Assembly (NCBI GenBank): GCA_012719175.1
Contig: JAAYAX010000008.1
Span: 1-64,000, forward strand
Direction: 5' to 3'
DNA: 64,000 nucleotides
From: Methanomassiliicoccus sp.
GTDB taxonomy: Archaea > Thermoplasmatota > Thermoplasmata > Methanomassiliicoccales > Methanomassiliicoccaceae
Part shown: positions 32,734 to 36,103 of the stretch, piece by piece
Numbering within the stretch: position 1 is the stretch's first letter
Layout: each line of letters begins with the position of its first letter
Made by a program: the position numbers and the translations under genes
The notes under the pieces: model-generated
Told to the model about the DNA's origin: nothing
The model's database searches: none
Seen by the model: the letters and a program-made list of their open reading frames with translations, nothing else

Positions 32734-32782
32734 AAGTATATAAATAGAAAGGTACCAAAGAGGTACCAAACCTTTTGGGGGG
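32734..32782 (+). promoter_or_regulatory. promoter and leader of the large secreted protein
   Basis: A strong TATA box (GTATATAAATAG) is followed by a direct repeat GGTACCAAA (32751-32759 and 32762-32770) and a run of six G. The G run lies 8 bases before the inferred start codon and can act as the ribosome-binding site. The preceding 90 bases are extremely AT-rich. The layout suggests a highly transcribed gene. Confidence 0.6.
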
Positions 32783-32790
32783 TTTACAAC

Positions 32791-34836
32791 ACGAAGAATG
32801 CAACGAAGATACTAGCACTAGCGCTCGCGCTAGTGGTGATGACCAGCGCCGTCGCCTTGGTAGCTTTACAGGGAACTACGACGACCGGTGCTGCTGACCA
32901 GGGATCCGACGATCTGAACACGTCGACCCCGGTCTCTGAGGACCAGAATCCTGAGTTGGTAGACCAGACCCCGGCTGAGAATGAGGAACAGAACGATATC
33001 CCAGCAACCACCACAATTTCTGCGGATAAGACCGCCGATGGTTTCTGGACTAAGACCATCCTGTATACCTGGACCATTGACAAGACCGTGTACGAGAACG
33101 ACTACGTGGTTCTTGCCGATGACTGCAATGGGTATGACCTCATGATCGAGCCCGGCGAGTGCGCTGTGATCTCTTACCTGATCACCGCTGACAGGTCCTG
33201 CCCAGTTGTGACCGAGAAGATCGGTGTTATGGGGACCATAACGGTAACCAACACTGGCTGCGCGGACACCCAGAGCCTGACCATCGTGGACACCATACAG
33301 ATACTGGTGGATGATTGTGTCGGATACGAGGACTACGTGAGCTTTGCCGTGGATATCTCCAGCCACCCCATCCTGGCGGCCGGTGAATCCTACTGCTACA
33401 GCTACTGCTTCGAGTTCGATGCTGTCGAGGGTGCATGCTACCGCAATGTCGCTGACGTGACCATCTGCAACTTCGAGGGTTATGCTGGCGAGATGTACGG
33501 CGTTGAGGCCATGGACGGGTTCAACCTGCCCTGCGAGCCCGAGGTCACCATAATCGATGACAACGCCTGCATCGTGGACGAGATCGGTGCCATCCCCAGC
33601 GGCTTCTGTGTCGAGGCCCTCACTGGTGTTGGGCCCTGGTTCGTGAACGGTGACGAGTGCTCTCACTTCGAGGTCTCCGTCAACCTGCAGGTGACCAATG
33701 TCGACGCCTGCCGCGACAAGATCTACACCATCTGCAACACGGCCATCCTGAGCCTTGAGGATTCTTGCGGGGAGATCTCCGACAGTGAGCCCATCGTGAT
33801 CTACGGTGGCTACCTGGAGACCACCCTTGCCGTCTGCAAGACCGCTGATGTGTCCTGGAGCGAGTACATCCAGCTAGGCCTGAACTTCCCCGACGCTGCC
33901 CTGGCAAGCCAGGTCAGCCAGGAGGACGTTGAGTTCGCCGAGACCGCAGACCCCGTCCTGATCGATCAGGTCGTGCTCAGCGATATTGGTACCTTCACCG
34001 TCGTCGGTGGCATCACCGTTGTCAACACCGGTGCCTACGCCACCCAGGGCCTTGTGCTCACTGACACCATCCAGATATGGAACGGTGAGTGCTGGATCGA
34101 TGTCGCTTCCATCAACGTTGACACCTGCGCTATGCCCATTCTGTGCCCCGGTGAGAGCTACACCTACGCATATGAGGTGACCTTCACCCTGGAGAACGTG
34201 GCCTTCATCGACTTCGATGAGACCCCGCTGCAGAACGTCGCCTACGCCAGCATCTGCAACTACGATGACGACGCTGAGGTGGATGGAGTTTACTTCTATC
34301 TGCCCCTGGAAGTGCCCTTCCTGCCCACCATGCTGACCATGGAGACCTCGGTGGTCTATGGCGCCAGCACCATTGCTCCCCTGAGCGATGACTGCAACGG
34401 CCCCCAGATGGAGTTCGCGACCGAGCTCAACTACCACCAGATCGTCCAGATCGTCTTCGGTGAGGAGACCGTTATCAGCACCATGACCGACATCTCTGTC
34501 GTCACCACCGTGACCTACACCAACCAGTGCGACAGTGTCTGCAAGGAGCTGAAGACAGCCATCTACAACGAGGGCACCACCAAGATCCTCGGTGACGAGA
34601 AGTGCGGCCAGATCGGATTCCAGACCGTGACCCACGACGACGAATGCATGACCATCTGCCTCAACGGCCAGGAAGTGGAAGTTGACATGAGGGCTCTGCT
34701 CGCTGCCTGCAACCAGGTCTCTGTCTGCATTGGTGATGACGGCTTCGCCATCACCAACGACCAGATGATGTTCTACGGAGCGTACGCATGCTTCGTGGTG
34801 GCCGAGGAGCCGGTCGAGCCTAACAACGACTTCTGA
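32791..34836 (+). CDS. large secreted Cys-rich acidic protein, apparent ACG start
   Basis: A predicted exported surface protein of 681 residues with repeated immunoglobulin-like (DUF11-type) units, e.g. MGTITVTNTGCADTQSLTIVD, then GGITVVNTGAYATQGLVLTD. It is rich in Asp, Glu and Cys, with no C-terminal membrane anchor. Reading back from the first GTG reveals a clean signal-peptide start, (ACG)-K-N-A-T-K-I-L-A-L-A-L-A-L-V-V, with GGGGGG 8 bases ahead and no ATG, GTG or TTG available. The GTG at 32833 would remove the basic n-region. Either ACG is used as start or a base was changed from ATG. It may be an S-layer or sheath component; this is inference. Confidence 0.7.
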   Translation, partial: TKNATKILALALALVVMTSAVALVALQGTTTTGAADQGSDDLNTSTPVSEDQNPELVDQTPAENEEQNDIPATTTISADKTADGFWTKTILYTWTIDKTVYENDYVVLADDCNGYDLMIEPGECAVISYLITADRSCPVVTEKIGVMGTITVTNTGCADTQSLTIVDTIQILVDDCVGYEDYVSFAVDISSHPILAAGESYCYSYCFEFDAVEGACYRNVADVTICNFEGYAGEMYGVEAMDGFNLPCEPEVTIIDDNACIVDEIGAIPSGFCVEALTGVGPWFVNGDECSHFEVSVNLQVTNVDACRDKIYTICNTAILSLEDSCGEISDSEPIVIYGGYLETTLAVCKTADVSWSEYIQLGLNFPDAALASQVSQEDVEFAETADPVLIDQVVLSDIGTFTVVGGITVVNTGAYATQGLVLTDTIQIWNGECWIDVASINVDTCAMPILCPGESYTYAYEVTFTLENVAFIDFDETPLQNVAYASICNYDDDAEVDGVYFYLPLEVPFLPTMLTMETSVVYGASTIAPLSDDCNGPQMEFATELNYHQIVQIVFGEETVISTMTDISVVTTVTYTNQCDSVCKELKTAIYNEGTTKILGDEKCGQIGFQTVTHDDECMTICLNGQEVEVDMRALLAACNQVSVCIGDDGFAITNDQMMFYGAYACFVVAEEPVEPNNDF

Positions 34837-34900: not shown

Positions 34901-35089
34901 GAGAGATGAGGATTGTCCTAAGAGATAATTAAATTGCAAATAAAAATACATCATTATCTTCCAGGATTATTTGTATCTGGCTAGAATATATTTTGATAAT
35001 AATCTAAAAAGATAAGAATATATACTACTTGCTCCAAAGAGTATTTGAGGCCCCTAGGGGGGGTCAAGAACCACAGGAGGTGAAACTAG

Positions 35090-35179
35090 ATGTTTGAGAT
35101 GGTGTACTTCACTGGATCCGTAATCTTCCTTGCGGCCAGCTTCACCTACATGAAGATCAGATCGGGCAGGCGCCACTAA
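35090..35179 (+). CDS. 29-residue membrane micropeptide A
   Basis: A tiny gene encoding 29 residues: MFEMVYFTGSVIFLAASFTY then MKIRSGRRH. It has a single hydrophobic segment and a basic C-terminus, so it should sit in the membrane with the tail inside. Evidence that it is real: a strong ribosome-binding site (GGAGGTGA, 6 bases ahead), a TATA-like AATATATAC about 70 bases upstream, and a paralogue 870 bases away with the same leader, the same reading frame and a matching 3' hairpin. I know of no family. Confidence 0.75.
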   Translation: MFEMVYFTGSVIFLAASFTYMKIRSGRRH

Positions 35180-35215
35180 ATGTGTGGGTGTGCCCTTCTT
35201 ATCGCAAACTCAACA

Positions 35216-35235
35216 GGGGGCTCGCAAGGGCTCCC
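35216..35235 (+). other. GCAA-tetraloop RNA hairpin after micropeptide A
   Basis: GGGGGCTC (35216-35223) can pair with GGGCTCCC (35228-35235) around a GCAA (GNRA) loop: eight continuous pairs, including a G-U at position 4 and a U-G at position 7. It lies 36 bases after the stop codon. The second micropeptide gene has an equivalent hairpin with compensating changes. It could be a transcript-end structure or a regulatory RNA element. Confidence 0.65.
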
Positions 35236-35334
35236 AATAAACCGATTCCCATCGAGATGCTTTTTACAGTTTCTCATGATAGGGTATAACGTTCGACAGG
35301 GCCTATCTGCGATCAATGGCCCCGTCGTCACTTG

Positions 35335-35598
35335 TTAATCAGCGTTCTTGACACGATCTAGCCTCCTCTTTACAATAAACAGCCTTTCTGAAAGAAGAGG
35401 CGATAACTGGATCTCCTTCTTCTGGCTCGACGATTCGAGCTGAAGCTGTCCGAGTCTTGAATGAAAAGAATCCACGATGATCTGCAGCTCTAACGGACCA
35501 AGATGGATATCGGGATGTTCGTGGCATCTAAGATCTAATGAGAATGGGCAATCCTTTCCCGAAAGAATATTTTCATGAAGGTCATCTAGAAAGTGCAT
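35335..35598 (-). CDS. small uncharacterised protein between the micropeptide genes
   Basis: An 87-residue soluble protein (MHFLDDLHENILSGKDCPFSLDL onward), with a HEH segment, one or two Cys, and a charged helical C-terminus (LSPLLSERLFIVKRRLDRVKNAD). AAGAGGAT lies 2-3 bases before the ATG, rather close, and a TATA-like CTATAAAG is also near. It is antiparallel to its neighbours and AT-rich like the whole island. No family recognised; it may be a horizontally acquired gene or a chance frame. Confidence 0.45.
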   Translation of the reverse strand: MHFLDDLHENILSGKDCPFSLDLRCHEHPDIHLGPLELQIIVDSFHSRLGQLQLESSSQKKEIQLSPLLSERLFIVKRRLDRVKNAD

Positions 35599-35962
35599 CA
35601 ATCCTCTTTATAGAGATACATTATCTCGTTGGGGGGTTGTTCAAACTATCATTAGATGATGCACCATGAAGCCGCATCTGAGTTCCATTCAACGCAACTA
35701 GTGTCGGCAATCGAGCTATCTGAGAACAAAAAATATCATTAATGGTTATCTGTCAATACTTTCCGCTCGACCACTTATAGTGATAATGCATAACACGGTA
35801 ATTGTTTACATATAGTAATAATTATCATAATTTTTTAACATTTGATTAATCAAACAAATAATTATTTTATTATTATGTAATAAGATAATGATAAATACAC
35901 CTTATTGCCAATTAGAACAATAGCCCTTGGGGGGGTAATGAACCAAAGGGAGGTGATGACGG
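35599..35962 (+). promoter_or_regulatory. AT-rich intergenic region with promoter and leader of micropeptide B
   Basis: This 364-base stretch has no convincing gene. Its right end contains a TATA-like GATAAATAC (35890-35898), a run of seven G (35929-35935) and a leader, GAACCAAAGGGAGGTGA, that matches the leader of micropeptide A nearly base for base. The rest is strongly AT-rich (for example 35800-35890) and may hold factor sites or a DNA bend. Confidence 0.5.
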
Positions 35963-36049
35963 ATGGAATGGGTATATTTCACCGGATCAATTATATTCCT
36001 GGCAGCCACCTGGACCTACATGAAGTTCAGCAGCGGCAGGCGCCGGTAG
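35963..36049 (+). CDS. 28-residue membrane micropeptide B
   Basis: Paralogue of micropeptide A: MEWVYFTGSIIFLAATWTYM then KFSSGRRR. Positions VYFTGS, IFLAA, TYMK and SGRR are identical. Differences are conservative, and many codon third positions differ, which indicates selection on the peptide. It has a GGAGGTGA ribosome-binding site 6 bases upstream. A single membrane helix and an Arg-rich cytoplasmic tail are expected. Function is unknown; possibilities are a subunit of a membrane complex, a signalling peptide, or a type I toxin-like peptide. Confidence 0.75.
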   Translation: MEWVYFTGSIIFLAATWTYMKFSSGRRR

Positions 36050-36083: not shown

Positions 36084-36103
36084 GAGGGCCTGCAAAGGCT
36101 CTC
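36084..36103 (+). other. GCAA-tetraloop RNA hairpin after micropeptide B
   Basis: GAGGGCCT (36084-36091) pairs with AGGCTCTC (36096-36103) around a GCAA loop. It begins 34 bases after the stop codon. Compared with the hairpin after micropeptide A, pair 2 changes G-C to A-U and pair 8 changes C-G to U-A (both sides substituted), pair 7 U-G to C-G, and the G-U at pair 4 is kept. Confidence 0.65.

Follow-up and report, generated by a model that had tools for sequence, protein, structure and literature searches.

Predicted membrane micropeptides encoded beside a secreted-protein gene form a previously unmodelled family in Methanomassiliicoccaceae

A 64,000-nucleotide stretch of a Methanomassiliicoccus sp. 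genome, hereafter the window, carries two similar and very small open reading frames (ORFs), which raise the question of whether frames this short are genes and, if so, with what their products work. The original prediction, made from the letters of the window, had described a pair of paralogous membrane micropeptides (A and B), and it had located both frames exactly; the TATA box, leader, Shine-Dalgarno sequence (SD) and 3' hairpin said to be common to the two copies were all present (Table 1).

Table 1. Features of the micropeptide locus, in window coordinates
Feature	Positions	Strand	Remark
Partner gene, ~670-aa secreted surface protein	32809..34836	+	exact start codon uncertain
Promoter A: dyad TAATCTaaaaAGATAA and TATA box ATATATA	35000..35024	+	
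5' leader mini-hairpin A, CCCC-UAG-GGGG	35050..35063	+	
Shine-Dalgarno A, AGGAGGTGA	35075..35083	+	9-nt match
Micropeptide A, MFEMVYFTGSVIFLAASFTYMKIRSGRRH	35090..35179	+	29 aa, one hydrophobic segment
3' terminator-like hairpin A, GGGGGCTC-GCAA-GGGCTCCC	35216..35235	+	
Promoter B: dyad TTATGTaataAGATAA and TATA box ATAAATA	35873..35897	+	
5' leader mini-hairpin B, CCC-UUG-GGG	35923..35935	+	absent from copy B single-sequence minimum-energy fold
Shine-Dalgarno B, GGAGGTGAT	35949..35957	+	9-nt match
Micropeptide B, MEWVYFTGSIIFLAATWTYMKFSSGRRR	35963..36049	+	28 aa
3' terminator-like hairpin B, GAGGGCCT-GCAA-AGGCTCTC	36084..36103	+	

Two micropeptide genes and their expression signals

Copies A and B were 77% identical over 74 nt. 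The expectation that they differ mainly at synonymous or conservative positions was borne out by a dN/dS of 0.16 (pN about 0.18), with the proviso that several differences were non-synonymous, mostly conservative. Among the 187 window ORFs of 25 to 36 codons, only A and B were preceded by GGAGGTGA within 20 nt, and the pair of micro-ORFs with its shared signals is more than chance. The protein of copy B was the same in the window genome (G000) and in G003, two synonymous changes separating the genes. Matches elsewhere to the extended pattern, a run of six G followed by GGAGGTGA, resembled coding sequence or had no peptide behind them, and were set aside.

Family promoters carried a TATCTnnnnAGATA-like dyad (of the TATCT-N4-AGATA kind) at fixed spacing before the TATA box. 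Over 20 copies, a mean of 4.65 of 6 dyad positions paired, compared with 1.65 in flanking sequence; dyad decay was greatest in the single off-locus copy, G000_C (3 of 6 pairs). Scanning three genomes for the dyad and TATA pattern with at most 2 mismatches returned only the micropeptide promoters and one further site, while a wrong-spacing control with one extra spacer base missed every micropeptide promoter and hit 0 to 4 chance sites in each genome. A perfect TTATCTtattAGATAA dyad also lies at L109 (G000:C4:535360), upstream of the gene for another predicted secreted protein (MHKKNGVFKRSIGGGIGIIAVIAMVLVAV...), possibly a second target of the same regulator.

Downstream of the TATA box, from whose spacing the transcription start was placed, 19 of the 20 leaders contained a C3-5/G3+ mini-hairpin of varying loop, which is missing from some single-sequence folds. 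The complete 9-nt SD, scored against the expected 16S tail complement, was likewise found in 19/20 copies. Within the window, the SD matched over 9 nt in A and B versus a maximum of 8 in 51 longer ORFs (at least 150 aa, with any start in the first 30% allowed). Terminator-like hairpins followed most family copies. The expression module of promoter, leader and SD is unusually conserved.

A family recovered by sequence and by position

The census reached 20 copies in 12 genomes, encoding peptides of 26-34 residues, with one or two copies per locus directly downstream of a secreted-protein gene and one copy off-locus. The latter is a third paralogue on another contig of the window genome (G000:C5:151079; L082 around 8080), far from any copy of the secreted-protein gene; no counterpart was found in G003. 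Besides its degraded dyad, it has an extended C-terminus, GRGGGPPT.

Clear sequence homologues, with E-values reaching 1e-19, occurred in G003, where two copies are arranged as in the window, and in G005, G002 and G006, and all were from the genus of the window. A pattern scan of genome contigs returned same-genus homologues only, across the rest of the order the micropeptide profile gave no credible match beyond the genus, and a micropeptide HMM (A1) found nothing outside it in 400 genomes of the class. Weak tBLASTn matches in other families (E 0.07-0.9) were taken as chance, most of them partial or inside longer frames.

In two sister genera, hydrophobic ORFs of 26-34 residues, too diverged for ordinary searches, were recovered by their position at the same locus. 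G009 had two such copies (MFALPYSFFYSTGVVFFAAWTTIAASGWLPFF and MVALPYSFFYSTGVVFFAAWTVIAASGWLPVFPF) directly downstream of the secreted-protein gene, and each of six genomes of genus g3 had one or two (e.g., MFSFTYLKAFAVIAFTYIAINWGFPING). Because profile comparison across genus types was weak (hhalign P-value 0.0036, probability 9%), homology between them rests on shared position, promoter and leader. The peptides had been proposed to belong to no known family, and Pfam, NCBIfam, PHROGs and PDB indeed held no family or structure match at accepted threshold; the only family candidate, YrhK (E 0.063), fell far below its cut-off. On these comparisons, the micropeptides are a real, previously unmodelled family found in one archaeal family, the Methanomassiliicoccaceae.

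Pooled pN/pS was 0.37 in the window genus (g1) against 0.74-1.04 in neutral simulation, and 0.24 in g3 against 0.61-1.07, while the two G009 copies gave 0.11; the pairs are non-independent and the sequences short, and the three genera nonetheless agree. Pairwise dN/dS was mostly 0.06-0.3. By this codon signature the micropeptide genes are under purifying selection as proteins, which in evolutionary terms marks them as translated products. The homologues in related genomes, together with the copies found by synteny and ratios well below 1, support the earlier reading of the pair as real coding micropeptides.

Across the family, the best 17-residue Kyte-Doolittle mean ranged from 1.25 to 2.09, and all members, shorter than 50 aa and with one hydrophobic segment, fit the general kind of small single-pass membrane micropeptides. 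We infer single-pass membrane insertion and high expression. Of the helix and Arg-rich tail first described, the single hydrophobic segment held for each copy, while the tail was confined to the genus of the window, C-termini being uncharged in the sister genera. Charge was placed differently by genus, as Arg at the C-terminus, as one Lys close to the N-terminus, or not at all, so membrane topology may differ as well. With this differing charge pattern and its restriction to one genus, the tail cannot be the core of function. Peptide sequence diverged quickly, with hydrophobic and aromatic character kept. The restriction of the tail, the third copy, the operator-like dyad and the link to an upstream secreted protein did not figure in the original prediction.

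Linkage to a secreted partner protein

The gene upstream of the micropeptides encodes a predicted secreted surface protein, here called the partner. The window copy is acidic (109 D+E versus 14 K+R) and contains 30 Cys, and nine aligned members have 28-50. An N-terminal hydrophobic segment is followed by a linker that varies and then by an all-beta body of tandem beta-sandwich domains, modelled with AlphaFold at a mean pLDDT of 78. Fold search gave generic beta-sandwich matches only, with query TM-scores of about 0.1; neither a C-terminal hydrophobic anchor nor a Pfam S-layer domain was seen. Conservation was highest in the N-terminal hydrophobic segment (57%, compared with 46% in the body and 31% in the linker), as expected if this helix itself has a partner. 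Large multi-domain secreted proteins related to it, with frames of 1016-1772 aa (L160, L162, L165), were encountered both in g3 and in further families within the order.

At window 32776-32840 the partner gene, like its G003 orthologue, has no in-frame ATG, GTG or TTG ahead of the signal segment, and compared with G006, which has a TTG start, a conserved GGGGGG run is followed by a shift of 1 nt; an unusual start, slippage or start-codon loss are possible explanations. Most partner leaders bear a GGGGGGTTT element near the gene start (window 32763-32800; L083, L084, L086, L087, L118, L119) and also, beyond the TATA box, a motif resembling TCCAA. Their loose resemblance to the micropeptide leaders suggests shared control.

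The partner locus is conserved in the sister genera, between a PD-(D/E)XK gene and metF. Of 147 genomes surveyed in the order, 12 had both partner and micropeptides and 135 had neither. As relatives share history, this co-occurrence amounts to few independent events rather than twelve; within the family, the two are probably jointly absent twice (G001 and G007). The partner profile matched across its length in exactly those 12 genomes, as fragments in two of them, the drafts G013 and G014, and matched one domain only in three further genomes from other families. G001, a 99% complete genome of the window's genus, keeps the surrounding gene order, with metF and the PD-(D/E)XK gene about 105 bp apart and both partner and micropeptides missing; G007 is also without both. 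A search beside partner paralogues elsewhere in g3 genomes found no micropeptides.

On its other side, the window pair abuts a metF-metV-mvhD-hdrA cluster. G010 and G014 gave no metF match yet keep partner and micropeptides; conversely, the metF cluster is present in G001 and G007, which lack the micropeptides. Partner and micropeptides are thus absent together and independently of metF, so the micropeptide forms a unit with the secreted protein rather than with metF. In G005, G006 and G002, a gene for a CxxC-containing protein (MDEKRCWFCRRGKREL...; L083 6971-7849, L084 7104-7904, L088 3023-3844) separates the micropeptide from metF or the metF neighbourhood; it was absent from the other genomes searched.

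Possible role and comparison with known systems

We tentatively favour, at somewhat short of an even chance, a reading in which the micropeptide is a membrane accessory that acts with the secreted partner in the envelope, the interaction being suggested by linkage. Each micropeptide gene would be its own unit, with transcription controlled by the dyad operator adjoining the TATA box; the mRNA would bear a short C-run/G-run hairpin near its 5' end, and the unusually complete SD would drive strong translation. The peptide would then insert into the cytoplasmic membrane and work there with the partner, helping that protein to be exported, retained or assembled in the cell envelope. Strict linkage, fixed dyad-TATA spacing, the 9-nt SD and purifying selection support such a role, and we infer a shared function of micropeptides and partner. 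The off-locus copy, the g3 partner paralogues that have no micropeptide next to them, the small number of independent events and the charge differences among genera weigh on the other side. Clearly more doubtful is a stronger version, a two-part envelope system whose Cys-rich beta-sandwich surface protein would need abundant, dyad-regulated transmembrane micropeptides as anchors or assembly factors, with a peptide that drifts quickly under a nearly fixed promoter and leader.

It is rather unlikely that the micropeptides are dyad-controlled envelope stress or adaptation peptides whose target is the bilayer or some general membrane protein, common regulation alone accounting for the locus shared with the surface protein. 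The dedicated dyad promoter, the strong SD, the leader hairpin and the variation in copy number do suggest a regulated, strongly expressed product, and both the off-locus copy and the quick divergence within a hydrophobic, aromatic character are in keeping with it; the joint gain and loss of the secreted gene and the micropeptides would nevertheless be left unexplained.

Modulation of a membrane energy or C1 enzyme complex, that of the adjacent metF-metV-mvhD-hdrA cluster or another, as by MtrI and MtrR for Mtr, seems improbable. Small proteins that modulate membrane complexes do occur in methanogens (PMC12774963, PMC13370731) and the genes do abut the cluster, but they are linked to the secreted gene and occur independently of metF in both directions.

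A hydrophobic toxin of type I toxin-antitoxin kind, paired with an antisense RNA, is considerably less probable still. Type I toxins include TisB (29 aa), Fst and Ldr, which the micropeptides resemble in length, single hydrophobic helix and tandem copies. They differ from these toxins in their very strong SD, which is not specially sequestered (accessibility 0.30 observed versus 0.20 for the synonymous-codon null, slightly more open), and in their vertical synteny, the locus being stable across three genera. Moreover, no antisense RNA family was detected with Rfam (no credible match, and none above gathering score), and viral contigs gave no micropeptide match at the sensitivity used. On present evidence, the micropeptides are probably not a type I toxin. 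That the RNA (5' hairpin and leader) is the functional product, with the ORF incidental or an attenuation leader peptide, is scarcely credible: the hairpin recurs in nearly all leaders with varying loops, but dN/dS is low and pooled pN/pS far below the null, window and tandem units usually end in their own hairpin, and no co-directional gene follows the last copy to be attenuated.

Methanogen protein-family libraries miss strongly constrained, probably highly translated genes of fewer than 35 codons, and position together with promoter and leader anatomy recovers family members beyond the reach of sequence search. If the link to the surface protein is true, it offers a direct handle on the building of the poorly understood Methanomassiliicoccales envelope, and it supplies a dyad operator from which to look for the regulator.

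Compared with archaeal S-layer and other envelope proteins, the partner is similarly secreted, acidic and apparently built of multiple beta-sandwich domains, and differs in being Cys-rich, with neither a Pfam S-layer domain nor a C-terminal anchor. KdpF, CydX, AcrZ and MgtS are bacterial single-pass micro-subunits of about 28-50 aa, and the micropeptides are like them in size, in having one helix and, as we propose, in working with a larger partner. Those subunits bind integral membrane complexes, whereas the partner linked to the micropeptides is secreted, and each micropeptide gene, unlike theirs, has its own promoter and hairpin. In Methanosarcina mazei, the small proteins MtrI and MtrR modulate Mtr (PMC12774963, PMC13370731); the micropeptides share with them the character of previously unannotated sORF products acting, here by prediction, at the membrane of methanogens, and differ from them in their 26-34 aa, in their link to a secreted surface protein and in belonging to another lineage.
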